Shown: piece after piece, positions 52,899 through 59,239 of the stretch | Layout: every line of letters begins with the position of its first letter | How positions within the stretch are numbered: position 1 is the first letter of the stretch | Assembly (NCBI RefSeq): GCF_009912395.1 | Contig: NZ_WNDO01000004.1 | Location: forward strand, 124,001 to 188,000 | Direction: 5' to 3' | DNA length: 64,000 nucleotides | Source of the DNA: Luteibacter sp. | GTDB taxonomy: Bacteria > Pseudomonadota > Gammaproteobacteria > Xanthomonadales > Rhodanobacteraceae | Translations under genes and position numbers: made by a program | The notes under the pieces: model-generated | Told to the model about the DNA's origin: nothing | Seen by the model: only the letters and a program-made list of their open reading frames with translations | The model's database searches: none

Positions 52899-53540
52899 CT
52901 ACCAGCGCAGAACTCTCGGCCCGATCACGGCGCCGACCAACGCTGGAATCAGCATGCCGGTCAGGTACCAGACCGACCAGAAGGGCGGGGCCATTTCGGG
53001 GCAGTGCAGGCAGTACGCCACGGTCGCTGTCGCACCCGCGAACAGGCCGATGGTGGCGCCGGTCGTGCGGGGGCGGGTGGGGGCCATGCCGCGTACCGCG
53101 TACAGCATCGCGACGAAAGCCGGCGTGGAAAGCGTGGCGATGAGGATCGCGCAAACCTTCCATGTATGTCCCAGTACCAGCGGGATGCGTTCGTCCGCGA
53201 GGGTGCCGGCGAGGATCGTCGCGGCCGCGAGCCACGCCAAGAAGATGGGCAAGGCGATGGCGGACCAGCGGGGTCCCACGCGCAGGCCAGGGCGGGCGAG
53301 TCGGCTGAGGGCCCACAGGGCGCCTGCCGCGATGCTCGCCGCGTAGCCCATGCGCCACCAGAACATCGGCAGGCGGATGGCCTCGGCGATATCGGGACGC
53401 AGACCGAGTAATACCGCCATGAGCAGCAGGGCGCCACCGAGTCCGGCCACCACGGCCAGCGCGTAACGGCGCGTCGGCTGGCGTCGATCGATGGCCGGCG
53501 CTTCACTGGCGAGCAGGGAGATCAGATCGTCGGTCTTCAT
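52899..53540 (-). CDS. nrsF: NrsF-type membrane anti-sigma factor (DUF1109), copy 1
   Basis: The 213 residues hold six membrane segments and match DUF1109, the NrsF family that restrains SigF-like ECF sigma factors and releases them under metal or oxidative stress. Typical segments: LGHTWKVCAILIATLS, and the Cys-containing YCLHCPEMAPPFW near the last helices. The start overlaps the sigma gene by four bases (ATGA). A second, diverged copy lies on the other side of the sigma gene. Confidence 0.88.
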   Translation of the reverse strand: MKTDDLISLLASEAPAIDRRQPTRRYALAVVAGLGGALLLMAVLLGLRPDIAEAIRLPMFWWRMGYAASIAAGALWALSRLARPGLRVGPRWSAIALPIFLAWLAAATILAGTLADERIPLVLGHTWKVCAILIATLSTPAFVAMLYAVRGMAPTRPRTTGATIGLFAGATATVAYCLHCPEMAPPFWSVWYLTGMLIPALVGAVIGPRVLRW

Positions 53541-54109
53541 GTCGAGCCTCGCAGGCTGGCGGCCAGGGCCTTCAGGCCTCGGTGCACGCCCACCTTCACC
53601 GCCGATTCGGACATGCCGCTGCGTTGCGCCGCCTCGGCCACGGACAGGCCCTGCAACTTCACCATCTCGATCGGCAGGCGATGGCGATCGGGAAGGGTTT
53701 CAAGCAGGCGGCCGACATCGCGCCGCGCGTTGGCGGGTTCGGTATCCGGGGCCACGAAGATGTTGGCATCCTCTTCGAGCGGATCGTGCAGGGCCTCGCG
53801 GCGGGCGTGGGCGCGGAAGAAGTCCATGAGCTTGTAACGGGCGATGGCGTGGACCCAGGCCGTAAGCGGCTGGTCCTCGCGGTAGGTGTGGCGTGCATTG
53901 TGAACGGCCAGCAGGGTTTCCTGAAGGATGTCCTCCACGTCGTCCTGCGCACGCGGCAGGCGACGACGCAGGTAGGCGCGTAGAAAGCCCGTCAGGCCGT
54001 CGAGGAAACGTCGATACTCGGACGCGTCGCCGCGCAGGCCGGCGACGAAGCGCCCGCGCAGTTCGATTTCGGCGGCGGAGGGACCGGAGGTATCCATGGG
54101 GGTCATCAT
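53537..54109 (-). CDS. SigF-like ECF sigma factor
   Basis: The 190 residues begin at an ATG at 54109 or 54106 (GGAAAC upstream). Region 2 covers FLRAYLRRRLPRAQDDVEDI and WVHAIARYKLMDFFRAHARR; region 4 covers LPDRHRLPIEMVKLQGLSVA and SESAVKVGVHRGLKAL. It belongs to the sigma group partnered with NrsF. In Caulobacter such a factor drives DUF2282-DUF692 (bufferin) genes. Here the bufferin operons are divergently encoded, with matching promoters. Confidence 0.92.
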   Translation of the reverse strand: MMTPMDTSGPSAAEIELRGRFVAGLRGDASEYRRFLDGLTGFLRAYLRRRLPRAQDDVEDILQETLLAVHNARHTYREDQPLTAWVHAIARYKLMDFFRAHARREALHDPLEEDANIFVAPDTEPANARRDVGRLLETLPDRHRLPIEMVKLQGLSVAEAAQRSGMSESAVKVGVHRGLKALAASLRGST

Positions 54110-54164: not shown

Positions 54165-54806
54165 TCACCATCGCAACAGCCTCGGTCCCAGCAGGGCCCC
54201 CGCCGCCGTGGAGAGGAGCATGCCCAGAACGTACCAGGTGGCCCAGAATGGCGCGGCCATCTCAGTGCAGTAAAGCGTATAAACGAGCACGGCCTGTGCG
54301 CCGGCCAGTACACCCGCGCCTGTGCCAGCCAGGACAAGCCTTGTAGGCGCGAGCCCCCGAACCGCCCAGAACGTGGCGCTGAACGTGGGCACCGAAAGCG
54401 CAAGAATGTTGAAACAGCACACGCGCCAGGTGTGTCCCAGAAGCAATGGCATGCGTAATTCCGCAGGGGCCGATTGCAGCACCCAGCCTGCGGCGATCCA
54501 CACGGCGACCATGGGCAGCGCCACCAGCACCCATGCCTGTCGCGTCCGAGCGCCGGGGCGTCCGAGCCGCGCGGCCAATAGCAGGGCGGCTGTCGCCACC
54601 GACGCGGGGAACAGGGCCTTCAGCCAGAAGACCGGGTTGTCCAGGACGGCCGGCAGGTCGTCGCGCATGCCGCCGAACGCCAGCAGCATTGTCAGGGCCA
54701 TGCCGACACCGATCGCGGTCGATCCTGCGAGCCGTCGTGCGACCGCATGGCGGTCGACCGGGCGCAGGTCGGTGACGAGGGCGTCGATGAGTTCTTGGGT
54801 ATGCAT
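54165..54806 (-). CDS. nrsF: NrsF-type membrane anti-sigma factor (DUF1109), copy 2
   Basis: The ATG at 54806 gives 213 residues, the same as copy 1, aligned at the start (MHTQELIDALVTDL versus MKTDDLISLLASEA). Landmarks are LGHTWRVCCFNILALSVPTF and YTLYCTEMAAPFW. It is first in the nrsF-sigma-nrsF operon. Cys and His residues in the membrane loops differ between copies, so they may sense different metals or redox states. Confidence 0.88.
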   Translation of the reverse strand: MHTQELIDALVTDLRPVDRHAVARRLAGSTAIGVGMALTMLLAFGGMRDDLPAVLDNPVFWLKALFPASVATAALLLAARLGRPGARTRQAWVLVALPMVAVWIAAGWVLQSAPAELRMPLLLGHTWRVCCFNILALSVPTFSATFWAVRGLAPTRLVLAGTGAGVLAGAQAVLVYTLYCTEMAAPFWATWYVLGMLLSTAAGALLGPRLLRW

Positions 54807-54815
54807 ATACCGCTG

Positions 54816-54842
54816 TTCGTTTGCGCGTGCCGCTCGGTTACA
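54816..54842 (-). promoter_or_regulatory. SigF-type ECF promoter of the nrsF-sigma-nrsF operon
   Basis: On the minus strand TGTAACC (54842-54836), 16 bases, then CGAA (54819-54816). The pattern is identical to that before bufA1 and bufA2. The expected start point lies only a few bases before the ATG at 54806, so the message is almost leaderless. It implies autoregulation of the sigma factor. Confidence 0.72.
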
Positions 54843-54862
54843 CCGATTTCGTCGATCCGAGC

Positions 54863-54889
54863 TGTAACCGCTAGGCAGTTGCCGGCGAA
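54863..54889 (+). promoter_or_regulatory. SigF-type ECF promoter of the bufA1 operon
   Basis: TGTAACC (54863-54869), 16 bases, CGAA (54886-54889). It lies 50 bases before the bufA1 ATG and only 20 bases from the divergent copy of the same motif. Confidence 0.75.
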
Positions 54890-54938
54890 TGGGTAAGGGA
54901 ACCCGGACATGTCGTCCGGCCAACCCAGGAGATTCCCC

Positions 54939-55205
54939 ATGAACCGTCACGCCGCTTCGCTCGCCCTCGCCGTTGCCGCCCTCGTCGCCGGCGCCGCCCA
55001 TGCCGACGAGGCCAAGCAGCCCGCCGTCGAGAAGTGCTGGGGCGTCGCCAAGGCCGGTCAGAACGACTGCGCCGCCGGCCCGGGCACCACCTGCGCCGGC
55101 ACCGCCAAGGCCGATTACCAGAAGAACGCATGGAAGAACGTGCCGACCGGCACCTGCACCTCGATCCAGACCCCGAAGGGTCACGGTTCGCTGACCAAGG
55201 GCTGA
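54939..55205 (+). CDS. bufA1: Bufferin precursor, DUF2282 (BufA1-type)
   Basis: The ATG at 54939 (AGGAGA upstream) gives 88 residues. A Sec signal peptide ends near residue 22 (AHADEA). The core has four Cys, 33, 44, 52 and 73 (EKCWGV, QNDCAAG, TTCAGT, GTCTSI). In the bufferin model the MNIO enzyme BufB turns certain Cys into thiooxazoles and the exported peptide binds copper. It leads the bufA1-bufB1-bufC1-doxX operon. Confidence 0.9.
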
Positions 55206-55209
55206 TGCC

Positions 55210-56043
55210 ATGACCTCGCTCACCGCCGGCATCGGCTTCAAGCCGCAGCACATCGACGAGGCGCTGGCCTGCGCCGAGGCCGGCGTGTGGCTCGAGGTGC
55301 ATCCCGAAAACTACATGGTGGATGGTGGCCCGCGCCTGGCGATGCTGGATGCGCTGGCGGAACGACATCCGCTGTCGCTGCATGGCGTGTCGTTGTCGTT
55401 GGGCTCCATCGAGCCGCCGGATACGAATCACCTTGCACGCCTGCGTCGCCTCGTGGATCGCGTGGACCCCGCGCTCGTCTCCGAGCACCTGGCCTGGTCG
55501 TCGTGGGAGGGACGCTACCTTCCCGATCTGCTGCCGTTCCCACGCAGCAGCGAGGCATTGTGTCGCGTGGTGGACAACGTCCAGCGCACGCAGGATGCGC
55601 TGGGTCGGCGCATCGCGGTGGAAAACCCCTCGCACTACGTCTACGTGGAAGGCCACGAGTGGGGCGAGACCGATTTCCTCGGCGAGCTGGCGCATCGCAG
55701 CGGATGCGGCCTGCTGCTCGACATCAATAACGTGCATGTAAGCGCACATAACCTTCGTTACGACGCGGGTGAATACCTGGACCGATTCCCGCTGCACGAG
55801 GTAATGGAAATCCACCTCGCCGGCCACACGGTGGACGACACGGTACGTGGCGGCCTGCTCGTTGATTCGCACGATACGGCGATTGGCGAAACGGTATGGG
55901 CCTTGTATGAACGAGTCATCGCGCGTGCCGGTCAACGGCCCACCCTGATCGAACGCGATGGCGACGTACCCTCGTTTGCCACGCTCATGGACGAGCGGCG
56001 TCGCGCGCACCATCGCCTCGCCGGCGACGCGGTGGCGGCATGA
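55210..56043 (+). CDS. bufB1: MNIO (DUF692) multinuclear iron RiPP enzyme, first copy
   Basis: The 277-residue TIM barrel uses two or three iron ions to modify Cys of the precursor. Metal-ligand segments of DUF692 are visible: VHPENYMVDGG, LHGVSLSLGS, VENPSHYV, LLLDINNVHVSAHN, EIHLAGHTV and LIERDGD. It starts four bases after bufA1 and overlaps bufC1 by four. Confidence 0.93.
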   Translation: MTSLTAGIGFKPQHIDEALACAEAGVWLEVHPENYMVDGGPRLAMLDALAERHPLSLHGVSLSLGSIEPPDTNHLARLRRLVDRVDPALVSEHLAWSSWEGRYLPDLLPFPRSSEALCRVVDNVQRTQDALGRRIAVENPSHYVYVEGHEWGETDFLGELAHRSGCGLLLDINNVHVSAHNLRYDAGEYLDRFPLHEVMEIHLAGHTVDDTVRGGLLVDSHDTAIGETVWALYERVIARAGQRPTLIERDGDVPSFATLMDERRRAHHRLAGDAVAA

Positions 56044-56792
56044 GCGATCTGGCCTGCTATCAGCGTCGTTTCCTGCATGCGCTGCGCGATACGGAAAGCA
56101 CGTTTTCGTCCGCGCGACAGCCCGCCTTCGATGTGTATCGCAATACGACCTTGCGTGGCTGCATCGACGCACTGGAAGCGAATTATCCGGCCGTAGCGTG
56201 TCTTGTCGGTCGCGACTGGTTTCGCGCCGCGGCGGCTGCGTATATCGAGGTCTCACCGCCGACCGATGTGCGCATGCTCTTCTACGGCGACGGCTTCGCC
56301 AGCTTTCTCGACGACGCGCCGCAGGCGGCCGAGCTGCCTTACCTGGGCGATGTCGCCCGGCTGGACCGTCTGTGGACGGAAAGCCAGCACGCTGCCGACG
56401 ATACACCGCTGCCAGCGGCGGCATGGGCGATGCTCGGCGCGGACGAACTGGCCACGATGCGCGTGCGTCCGCATGCATCGCTTCGCCTGTTTCGTGCACC
56501 GCGTCCTGCCGTCACCATCTGGCGTGCCAGTCGCGACGGGCGGCCGGTCGGCGACGATCTTCCGTGGCGTGCCGAGTGCGCGATCGTCATCCGTCCGCAC
56601 ATGAACGTGACGGTCCTCGATGTCGACCCGGCCGCCTTGAGCCTCATCCAGATGTGCGCCTCCGGGCATTCGCTCGGCGACGCCATCGTTCACACCCTCG
56701 ACCTTTATCCCGATGTCGCCATCGACCGCATCCTCGGCGGTTGCCAGCTGGCCGGCGTCTTCGCCCTTTCGCCAGGAGAACCCTCCCCATGA
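56040..56792 (+). CDS. bufC1: BufC/DUF2063 partner protein, first copy
   Basis: The 250 residues carry the DUF2063 N-terminal domain (VYRNTTLRGCIDALEANYPA) and a C-terminal part with LSPGEPSP at the end. BufC-type proteins bring precursor and MNIO enzyme together. ATGA overlaps on both sides show tight coupling with bufB1 and doxX. Confidence 0.92.
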   Translation: MSDLACYQRRFLHALRDTESTFSSARQPAFDVYRNTTLRGCIDALEANYPAVACLVGRDWFRAAAAAYIEVSPPTDVRMLFYGDGFASFLDDAPQAAELPYLGDVARLDRLWTESQHAADDTPLPAAAWAMLGADELATMRVRPHASLRLFRAPRPAVTIWRASRDGRPVGDDLPWRAECAIVIRPHMNVTVLDVDPAALSLIQMCASGHSLGDAIVHTLDLYPDVAIDRILGGCQLAGVFALSPGEPSP

Positions 56793-57262
56793 ACCGTCAC
56801 GATGTTGTTGCGACGCAGCAGTCCTTTTCCCTTCGCGACCGCTGGAACGCGCTCGCCGATCGCATCGGTGGGTGGATCGGCCACGACCTGCTCGCGATCG
56901 TGGCGCGGCTTTCCATCGCCGCGATCTTCTTCCAGTCCGGCCGCACCAAGGTGGAGGGCTTCCTCACCATTACCGAGGGCACCTACGAGCTGTTTCGCAG
57001 CGAATACAAGGTGCCGCTGCTTCCGCCGGAGATCGCCGCCCACCTGTCGGCTGGTGTGGAGACCTTCGTGCCGGTCCTGCTCGTGATGGGGCTCTTCACG
57101 CGGGCGTCAGCGCTCGTATTGCTGGGTATGACTACCGTGATCGAGCTTTTCGTCTATCCGGACGCCTGGCCTACCCACTTGTCCTGGGCGGCCATCCTGC
57201 TGTATCTCATCGCGCGGGGAGGGGGCCGGTTGTCGCTCGATCACATCTTCCGCATCCGTTGA
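56789..57262 (+). CDS. DoxX-family membrane protein
   Basis: The ATG at 56789 (AGGAGAA upstream) gives 157 residues with four membrane segments (LSIAAIFFQSGRTKVEGFL, then VPVLLVMGLFTRASALVLLG). DoxX proteins often close bufferin operons and may couple to the respiratory quinone pool. It overlaps bufC1 by four bases and lies between the two buf operons. Confidence 0.9.
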   Translation: MNRHDVVATQQSFSLRDRWNALADRIGGWIGHDLLAIVARLSIAAIFFQSGRTKVEGFLTITEGTYELFRSEYKVPLLPPEIAAHLSAGVETFVPVLLVMGLFTRASALVLLGMTTVIELFVYPDAWPTHLSWAAILLYLIARGGGRLSLDHIFRIR

Positions 57263-57283
57263 TGCAATTCGTCCGTATACGTG

Positions 57284-57310
57284 TGTAACCAGAACCGCAG
57301 CGGGCACGAA
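57284..57310 (+). promoter_or_regulatory. SigF-type ECF promoter of the bufA2 operon
   Basis: TGTAACC (57284-57290), 16 bases, CGAA (57307-57310). Same elements and spacing as at 54863 and 54842, 44 bases before the bufA2 ATG. It shows that the second operon has its own start as well as possible read-through from doxX. Confidence 0.75.
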
Positions 57311-57354: not shown

Positions 57355-57621
57355 ATGCAAACCTCGACCAGCAGCATCGCCGCCGCCGCCGCCATCTTCG
57401 CCGTCTCGGCCGTCGCCATCTCCGCGCCCGTGCAGGCGGCGGAAAAGGGCGGTGACGCCGTGCATTGCTACGGCATCAACAGCTGTAAGGGCACCTCGGA
57501 CTGCAAGACCGCCAACAATGCCTGCAAGGGTCAGAACAGCTGCAAGGGCCAGGGCTTCAAGGCCGTGTCCATGAAGGAATGCAAGGCCGCCGGCGGCAGC
57601 ACCACCGCGCCGGCCAAGTGA
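57355..57621 (+). CDS. bufA2: Bufferin precursor with six Cys (BufA2-type)
   Basis: The 88 residues begin with a signal peptide (cleavage near PVQAAEK, residue 29). The core has six Cys at 38, 44, 50, 57, 63 and 76, many in a repeated KG/CKG setting (HCYGINSCKGTSDC, ACKGQNSCKGQGF), the BufA2 pattern. Unlike BufA1 it is Lys- and Gly-rich. It has its own MNIO and partner genes downstream. Confidence 0.9.
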   Translation: MQTSTSSIAAAAAIFAVSAVAISAPVQAAEKGGDAVHCYGINSCKGTSDCKTANNACKGQNSCKGQGFKAVSMKECKAAGGSTTAPAK

Positions 57622-57668: not shown

Positions 57669-58508
57669 ATGAACGCATCCTCCCTGCCAGGTTTCCACGG
57701 GTTCGGCCTGGGCCTGCGCATACCGCACTACAGCGATTTCCTCGACCATCGCCAGCCGGTCGATTTCGTCGAGGTCATATCCGAAAACTTCATGGTCGAG
57801 GGCGGCCGCCCGCTGGACGTACTCGCCCGCATCCGTGAACGCCACCCGGTGGCCTTGCACGGCGTCTCCATGAACATCGGCGGCGAAACGCTGGATCGCG
57901 ACTACCTGCGCCGCCTTCGCGCGCTGGCCGATCGCATCGACCCGCTATGGGTGTCCGACCACCTGTGCTGGACAGGCATCGCCGGATTCAATTCGCACGA
58001 CCTGCTGCCCCTGCCGTATACCGAGGAAGCGCTCGGCCTCGTTGCGGAGAACATCCTGTTGGCCCAGGACATCCTGGGACGTTCGCTCGTGCTGGAAAAT
58101 CCGTCCACCTACCTCGCGTTTCCGGGGCAAGGCATGAGCGAGGCGGCCTTCATCGCCGAGCTGTGCGCCCGTACGGACTGCCATCTCCTGCTCGATGTGA
58201 ATAACATCTACGTCAGCGCCACCAATCATGGATTCGATCCACAGGACTGGCTCGATCGCCTGCCGCTGGATCGCGTCCGCCAGATCCATCTCGCCGGACA
58301 CAGCCAGGGACGCGACATGTTGGTCGATACGCACGACGCGCCGGTGCCCGACGCGGTATGGGATCTGTATGCGCGATTCATCGCGCGACTGGGCGATGTC
58401 GCGGTAATGATCGAACGCGACGACCATATTCCGCCCCTTGCCGACCTGCTGTCTGAAGTGTCGAAGGCGCGCGACATCGCCGACGCGTCGCGGCGCCAGG
58501 TGGCATGA
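57669..58508 (+). CDS. bufB2: MNIO (DUF692) multinuclear iron RiPP enzyme, second copy
   Basis: The ATG at 57669 gives 279 residues. DUF692 segments are VISENFMVEGG, LHGVSMNIGG, LENPSTYL, LLLDVNNIYVSATN and IHLAGHSQ. It is clearly diverged from BufB1, as expected if each recognises its own precursor. Overlaps bufC2 by four bases. Confidence 0.93.
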   Translation: MNASSLPGFHGFGLGLRIPHYSDFLDHRQPVDFVEVISENFMVEGGRPLDVLARIRERHPVALHGVSMNIGGETLDRDYLRRLRALADRIDPLWVSDHLCWTGIAGFNSHDLLPLPYTEEALGLVAENILLAQDILGRSLVLENPSTYLAFPGQGMSEAAFIAELCARTDCHLLLDVNNIYVSATNHGFDPQDWLDRLPLDRVRQIHLAGHSQGRDMLVDTHDAPVPDAVWDLYARFIARLGDVAVMIERDDHIPPLADLLSEVSKARDIADASRRQVA

Positions 58509-59239
58509 ACCTTCGCGACTGGCAGAAAGCCTTCGTGGCTGCGCTCGCTGCGGGCCTCGTGCCCGCCGATACGGATCCACGCGGCATGGCCGTTTACGCG
58601 AACAACTACCGCACGCAATTGATCGCCGGCCTCGGCGAGACCTACGCGAAGACGCGATTGTGGCTGGGTGACTCCGCCTTCGATGCGGCGGCCGGTCGCT
58701 ACATCGATGCGCATCCTCCGTCGTCGTGGACGCTCGATGCCTACGGCGAGACCTTCGTCCAGCAACTCGAGACCGAGTATTCCCTCGATCCGGAGATCGC
58801 CGAGCTGGCATGGCTCGACTGGCACCTGCGCCGTGCGTTTTCCGGCCCGGATGCCCCGTCGCTGGACGTGCGCGACCTCGTCGCCGACGATTGGGACCGG
58901 GTCGAATTCGATTTCGTGCCGACGCTGCGCTTCCGTCGTGTACGCAGCAACGCGGTGGCGATCTGGCGGGCGATCGCCGACGAGGTTCCGCCGCCGGCCG
59001 CCGTGTTCGTGGAGGAAGGGCTCGGGGCACGCGTGTGGCGACAGGGGCTGTCGCCCCGGTTCGCCAGCATGACGGCCGACGAGACCGCCTGCCTGGACCT
59101 CGCCCTCGCGGGGGCCAGTTTCGGTGAGATCTGCACGTATCTCGGCCGTACCTGGGAAGGCGAACAAGCCGCCCGCATCGCCGGCGGTTGCCTCGGCGCC
59201 TGGACGGCCGAAGGCATGATCCAGGGCCTCAGGGGCTAG
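58505..59239 (+). CDS. bufC2: BufC/DUF2063 partner protein, second copy
   Basis: The 244 residues carry the DUF2063 start (NLRDWQKAFVAALAAGL) and VYANNYRTQLIAGLGETYAK, then a C-terminal domain. It closes the bufA2 operon, which has no doxX of its own. Confidence 0.92.
   Translation: MNLRDWQKAFVAALAAGLVPADTDPRGMAVYANNYRTQLIAGLGETYAKTRLWLGDSAFDAAAGRYIDAHPPSSWTLDAYGETFVQQLETEYSLDPEIAELAWLDWHLRRAFSGPDAPSLDVRDLVADDWDRVEFDFVPTLRFRRVRSNAVAIWRAIADEVPPPAAVFVEEGLGARVWRQGLSPRFASMTADETACLDLALAGASFGEICTYLGRTWEGEQAARIAGGCLGAWTAEGMIQGLRG

Follow-up and report, generated by a model that had tools for sequence, protein, structure and literature searches.

A putative sigma-F type regulon joining two bufferin operons and two NrsF genes in Luteibacter

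Does a single extracytoplasmic function (ECF) sigma factor govern two separate operons for ribosomally synthesized and post-translationally modified peptides (RiPPs) as well as its own gene? The question is raised by a 64,000-nucleotide stretch of Luteibacter sp. DNA (the window), in which a sequence-only reading had placed one motif, TGTAACC-N16-CGAA, before an nrsF-sigma-nrsF operon, before bufA1 and before bufA2. Our analysis finds the motif at all three places, a spacer of exactly 16 bases separating GTAACC from CGAA in each case. The putative promoter of the nrsF1-sigma-nrsF2 operon lies at 54816..54842 on the minus strand, and those of the bufA1 and bufA2 operons lie at 54863..54889 and 57284..57310 on the plus strand; all three assignments rest on the pattern match and on conservation in the genus. 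We consider a compact, autoregulated regulon of ECF16 (sigma-F) type, with three promoters serving two bufferin operons and the sigma operon, to be the best explanation of this locus, with a probability of about 0.92.

Three promoter sites and their conservation

The three sites are the only matches to TGTAACC-N16-CGAA in the window, for which 100 dinucleotide shuffles gave a mean of 0.00. They are also the only matches in the whole genome (5,393,736 bases in 56 contigs), where the reversed pattern, which served as the control for motif scans, gives none. A looser pattern, GTAAC-N17-CGAA, is matched 17 times in the genome and its control 20 times. Five of these 17 are GTAACC-N16-CGAA, and the two of the five that fall outside the locus sit within long coding frames (LanM-like and ComM-like by reading of the translations). 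When one mismatch to TGTAACC-N15-R-CGAA is allowed, the genome yields 15 added sites and the control 16; in the absence of any excess, the 15 are taken to be chance matches. No further member of the regulon stands above chance in this genome, and at exact-match strictness the sigma factor appears to have three targets.

We sampled 23 Luteibacter genomes, of which 18 contain NrsF above the cut-off and 5 do not. In the stretch read of each of the 18, GTAACC-N16-CGAA occurs exactly three times: before the sigma operon, before bufA1 and before bufA2. A T precedes GTAACC at all 54 of these sites, although it lies outside the search pattern; A or G precedes CGAA at 53 of the 54, and C or T follows it at 53 (the site before the sigma gene of genome G147 is the sole core site that does not end in a pyrimidine). 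Identity among the 16-base spacers is 37%, where composition predicts 32%. The sharpened pattern TGTAACC-N16-CGAAY is matched in 18 of the 18 genomes with NrsF and in none of the five without it; two of these five (G062 and G133) also lack an MNIO gene, whereas each of the remaining three has a single one, which in G152 is a fragment. Because the same three promoters precede the same operons in every NrsF-bearing genome, the proposed tie of one sigma factor to two RiPP operons and to its own expression is well supported by comparison.

The spacing of the divergent pair fared differently. The two heptamers are indeed 20 bases apart in the window, but as a conserved distance this does not hold, since the gap ranges from 10 to 123 bases over the 18 genomes, and a fixed spacing between the divergent promoters is rejected. 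From CGAA to the start codon the distance in the window is 9 bases for nrsF1, 49 for bufA1 and 44 for bufA2.

The genes behind the promoters and their known relatives

The minus-strand operon encodes, in order, NrsF1 (54165..54806; PF06532, 235 bits), an ECF sigma factor of 190 residues (53537..54109) and NrsF2 (52899..53540; PF06532, 235 bits). The sigma protein has regions 2 and 4 only (Sigma70_r2, 4.3e-11; Sigma70_r4_2, 9.1e-12), as expected of an ECF sigma factor, and scores 288 bits on NCBIfam NF009188, above the cut-off of 250. On the plus strand, the first operon encodes a BufA1-type precursor with four cysteines (54939..55205; DUF2282), the MNIO maturase BufB1 (55210..56043; NF050167, 362 bits, cut-off 310), the DUF2063 partner protein BufC1 (56040..56792; domain match) and a DoxX/HvfX-like membrane protein (56789..57262; domain match, with the HvfX model below its cut-off). 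The second encodes a BufA2 precursor with six cysteines (57355..57621; NF050166, 110.5 bits, cut-off 60), the maturase BufB2 (57669..58508; NF050167, 366.8 bits) and the DUF2063 partner BufC2 (58505..59239; domain match). Cysteines were counted in the translations and signal peptides judged by eye. Four-cysteine (Buf1, DUF2282) and six-cysteine (Buf2) precursors thus stand beside MNIO and DUF2063 genes, and by this gene content the peptides are probably bufferins, for which cysteine modification and copper binding are predicted.

Bufferin genes also occur elsewhere in these genomes. In the window's genome, a contig of 9.5 kb (C48) carries a second cluster (locus L199, 3067-6504) with a BufA1-type gene, DoxX, a hydrolase-like frame, and BufA2-, BufB2- and BufC2-like genes; it contains no GTAACC-N15/16/17-CGAA, and every TGTAACC/CGAA pair within it has at least two mismatches. 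In three other Luteibacter (loci L037, L073 and L074; genomes G112, G147 and G156) the main locus reads bufA1-bufC1-doxX, without bufB1. Since each of these three has another, motif-free BufA1/MNIO cluster elsewhere (L200-L202), the MNIO enzyme may work in trans.

A regulon of this kind is already known from Caulobacter crescentus. The likeness to the SigF promoter type of that organism, suggested from sequence alone, is borne out: the sites match both the Caulobacter motif GTAACC-N16-CGAA, through which sigma-F controls the sigF operon and the DUF2282/DUF692/DUF2063 operons (PMC3511200, 2012), and the tGTAACc-N16-CGAA consensus of ECF16 as cited by PMC3420878. The Caulobacter system (CC3253-CC3252, with targets CC3254-3257, CC2907-2905 and CC2748) shares the identical motif, the same kinds of operon and an NrsF with two conserved cysteines (PMC3511200), and the window's DUF2282, DUF692/MNIO, DUF2063 and DoxX genes are of kinds targeted in Caulobacter too. 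The Caulobacter regulon is induced by copper, and a sigF mutant is copper-sensitive (PMC8224329, 2021). Luteibacter differs in that a single locus contains both bufferin operons and the sigma operon, the latter divergent from bufA1; in that two NrsF genes flank the sigma gene; and in that no fourth target like CC2748 appears at exact match in the window's genome. We take CC2907-2905 to be the second bufferin operon of Caulobacter. The sigma-F circuit would thus be kept whole, with the same promoter, in a gammaproteobacterial genus; what is added here is the Luteibacter case, the second type of NrsF and the satellite targets described below.

Other relatives share parts of this arrangement. The ECF16 systems of Bradyrhizobium (EcfF/OsrA), Sinorhizobium (RpoE7/EcfR7) and Brucella (B0022/B0023) have in common the six-helix DUF1109/NrsF anti-sigma factor with two cysteines and the same consensus, with one anti-sigma factor per sigma factor as described in the cited portions of PMC3420878, PMC6180224 and PMC8315932, against two in the window. 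Bradyrhizobium EcfF differs further in its motif, GTAAC(g,a)-N14-15-(c,t)CG(t,a), and in its targets (PMC3420878). As for bufferins, PMC12452194 (2025) reports Buf1 clusters with sigma and NrsF genes and Buf2 clusters without them, whereas the Buf2 operon of Luteibacter shares the sigma/NrsF locus and the promoter.

In Cupriavidus metallidurans, likewise, a Buf1-type operon (gigPABT) diverges from the genes of an ECF sigma factor and its anti-sigma factor (rpoQ-rsqA). Over the 10.6 kb covered, that locus contains a single NrsF-type gene and lacks a Buf2-type operon. Control of gig by RpoQ is given as an assumption in PMC10304878, according to which no promoter had been identified upstream of gig. 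We find two perfect divergent copies of TGTAACC-N16-CGAAT between the two transcription units of strain CH34 (NC_007974.2; L273, 4211-4296), the gene names being assigned by the gene order in PMC10304878 because the record carries no annotation. These sites make RpoQ-driven transcription of gig a testable question.

Beyond the genus, at least one exact N16 site is present in all 80 loci picked by likeness to the window's NrsF2 (eight of them from Luteibacter), where a hand estimate puts the expectation at about 0.03 per 16.6 kb. Seventy-two of these loci, together with 14 from a draw over the phylum, make up 86 non-Luteibacter loci, which are related to one another and so not independent. They hold 152 N16 sites, 149 of them preceded by T. 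By a rough classification, in which the choice of frame is sometimes wrong, the sites precede the sigma gene in 53 cases, a cytochrome b561/molybdopterin-oxidoreductase-like operon in 37 (27 + 10; a label given by reading translations and by Pfam on one b561 protein), NrsF in 11 and BufA1 in 11, the others falling into smaller classes or having a wrong frame. The phylum draw comprised 398 genomes, with NrsF in 81 of them, 75 over the cut-off. Among its 29 other NrsF loci, the motif is found in 13 of the 14 best-scoring (one with a spacing of 15) and in none of the next 15, so that the motif goes with only a part of the NrsF family. In one of the non-Luteibacter loci (L157, 2824-3206) the motif precedes a small, secreted-looking protein with Met-Ser-Lys-Asp repeats and no Pfam match; by reading, it resembles MrpX, a methionine-rich protein of hypochlorite defence named in PMC4623255.

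A second lineage of NrsF

The two NrsF proteins of the window are paralogs with 43% identity, and both trees that we built rule out NrsF1 as a recent duplicate of NrsF2. In the first tree (122 proteins; three Caballeronia loci, L094, L096 and L098, in which the NrsF frame ends after 106 residues, were left out), NrsF1 falls into a clade of 19, here called B, with support of 100/98. This clade comprises three Luteibacter proteins, including that of the window, one from Pinirhizobacter, four from Herbaspirillum, two from Dyella, eight from Burkholderia/Paraburkholderia and one other, and NrsF2 belongs to the usual type, A. In a tree enlarged by the proteins of an even draw of 150 genomes of one family, with duplicates entered once, low-scoring or fragmentary matches and one sequence with an internal stop omitted, and the A side thinned to 67 rows, the B clade has 27 members and support of 98.

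The clearest differences between the two types lie at the sensor, where CLHCPEM in A becomes (S/T/A)LYCxEM in B. The cysteine at 177 is present in 60 of 67 A proteins and in none of the 27 B proteins, and position 179 is histidine in 97% of the 67 and tyrosine in all 27. NrsF-A carries a possible set of metal ligands, C130, C177, H179 and C180. The two conserved anti-sigma cysteines, C130 and C180 in both NrsF proteins of the window, correspond to 131 and 181 in Caulobacter and to 129 and 179 in OsrA. The first of these is gone in 11 of the 19 B proteins and in none of the 103 others in the first tree, through two changes, and in the enlarged set it is lost in 17 of 27 B and 0 of 67 A proteins; the second is glycine in two Dyella B copies. 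In OsrA, C129S abolished binding to EcfF and C179S abolished the peroxide response (PMC3420878), and B proteins without the first cysteine may therefore bind weakly or in another manner.

Eighteen of the 19 B genes of the first tree lie behind an exact same-strand motif (the exception is in L151); they are part of the sigma operon, adjoin it, or close a bufA1 operon. The sigma operon itself houses the copies of Herbaspirillum (four), Pinirhizobacter (one) and Luteibacter (three). In the window nrsF1 is the first gene of the operon, and its 9-base distance from CGAA is repeated in both other Luteibacter genomes with NrsF1. Provided that transcription begins some six bases behind CGAA, the distance mapped for Bradyrhizobium ecfF (PMC3420878), the NrsF1 message would be nearly leaderless. 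The even draw of 150 genomes, from a family that is apparently Burkholderiaceae, gave 43 with NrsF, and in the part of these that was classified B occurs in 10 genomes, all 10 of which also have A (for G676, on the strength of a contig identical to L089); among the 80 loci, a statement that B never occurs without A is limited by their choice for likeness to NrsF2. No description of a second NrsF, or of two anti-sigma factors for one sigma factor, was found in open-licence titles and abstracts.

One tentative reading of these data, which we would put at somewhat short of even odds, is that a single sigma factor answers to two anti-sigma factors that sense differently and come from distinct, old lineages, with B as a stress-deaf or differently tuned brake. 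As B is expressed from promoters of the sigma factor itself, the response would start on release by A and stop as B accumulates, even though the metal persists. Why several lineages keep a second NrsF with an altered sensor becomes a testable question.

Proposed signal and brakes, and further targets

Drawing on work in Caulobacter and Bradyrhizobium for promoter use, stress release and metal tolerance, the regulon could operate as follows. At rest, NrsF would hold the sigma factor at the inner membrane, with both NrsF proteins presumably able to bind it. Envelope stress from metals or on thiols, with copper the likeliest cause, would be sensed through the conserved Cys/His face of NrsF and free the sigma factor, so that RNA polymerase could start at the three TGTAACC-N15-R-CGAA-Y promoters. 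Two of these would yield the bufferin precursors, MNIO maturases, DUF2063 partners and DoxX protein, the bufferin peptides then reaching the periplasm and binding metal. The third would yield more sigma factor and the two NrsF proteins, closing a negative loop that ends the response.

Several points weigh against this account. The dependence of the three promoters on this sigma factor in Luteibacter is drawn from comparison, and its placing in ECF16 from the sigma domains, the linked anti-sigma factors, the promoters and the target genes; both NrsF proteins of the window, at 150 and 155 bits, are below the cut-off of 300 of the NCBIfam equivalog NF042994. The plain pattern TGTAACC-N16-CGAA has a single match in the NrsF-lacking Luteibacter G062, and it is matched at least once in at least 90 of 147 genomes of the family, single chance matches being common; this family-wide scan, which served to find the genus loci, does not, taken alone, tell true sites from accidental ones. 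Completeness is only 80% in one of the five genomes without NrsF, and the 80 loci picked by likeness to NrsF2 are not an even sample. Elsewhere, deletion of rpoQ in C. metallidurans raised gig expression (PMC10304878), and a second regulator acts on the Caulobacter sigF promoter (PMC3511200). The promoters of Sinorhizobium meliloti RpoE7 did not respond to H2O2, cadmium or chromate (PMC6180224), which makes the signal of the regulon uncertain.

That the three sites are chance matches, or are used by another sigma factor, is highly improbable: the plain pattern does arise by chance about once in many genomes, but the positions, number and flanking bases of the sites are conserved in all 18 genomes while the spacers are not. 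A regulon that is real but answers mainly to an oxidant damaging thiols or methionine (hypochlorite or peroxide) rather than to copper, with bufferins as a general buffer of thiols and metals, deserves more weight, and we regard it as rather unlikely. Such a signal would fit related sigma-F/NrsF systems that answer hypochlorite or peroxide, namely Brucella B0022/B0023 (PMC8315932), Bradyrhizobium EcfF/OsrA (PMC3420878) and the perchlorate islands with yedYZ and mrpX (PMC4623255), as well as the many Burkholderiaceae sites before the cytochrome b561/molybdopterin-oxidoreductase-like operon and the methionine-rich small protein behind the motif in L157. At the window locus, however, both target operons are bufferin operons, and the Caulobacter counterparts are induced by copper, chromium and cadmium but not by compounds that generate reactive oxygen species (PMC3511200, PMC8224329).

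The tentative reading of NrsF1 as a differently sensing brake has two rivals of its own. NrsF1 could be redundant, a spare brake that senses just as NrsF2 does, as its retention of C130, C180 and the same N-terminal segment pattern would allow; moreover, one NrsF suffices in most genomes (15 of the 18 in the genus). We hold this to be unlikely, given the divergence of NrsF1 from NrsF2, its well-supported clade and the altered sensor residues in all 27 members of that clade. It is more doubtful still that NrsF1 no longer binds the window's sigma factor and has another partner or none. The OsrA cysteine matching C130, needed for binding to EcfF (PMC3420878), is lost in most B proteins, yet NrsF1 of the window keeps it, and nearly all B genes stand behind a sigma-F type promoter, eight of them within the sigma operon.

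The sharpened motif, TGTAACC-N15-R-CGAA-Y, leads to further targets in sister genomes. Over the 23 Luteibacter genomes, TGTAACC-N16-CGAAY has 79 matches, 53 at core sites and 26 elsewhere, against 9 for the reversed control. Twenty of the 26 satellite sites (L231-L255) precede five recurring families: a CxxCxxCC (PF03692) protein in six cases, DoxX in five, a lactonase-like beta-propeller protein in five, an extra BufA1-type protein in three and cytochrome b561 in one, as assigned by Pfam on one member per family and by likeness of translations for the others. The remaining six precede an RpoH-like sigma factor, an alpha/beta hydrolase, a thioredoxin-like protein and an unknown protein, with no clear gene behind two. 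A test for sites lying in frame flagged 18 of the 26, many of them directly before the recurring genes, and is uninformative because the DNA is GC-rich. The window's genome has core sites only. In the open-licence literature we found no description of these satellite targets. Similar CxxCxxCC and beta-propeller genes lie behind the motif in Burkholderiales loci (L093, L147 and L142), and the roles of the CxxCxxCC protein, the beta-propeller protein and the extra BufA1 under metal stress become testable.

The sigma/NrsF/bufferin regulon is also borne by conjugative plasmids of Stenotrophomonas and Pseudomonas (L274 and L275), with two BufA1-type and two NrsF genes. Each plasmid has four sites, three with TGTAACC and one with TGTAACT, and genes for HD-domain proteins and chemotaxis receptors lie between those of the regulon. 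On the Stenotrophomonas plasmid, mercury-resistance genes are found nearby.

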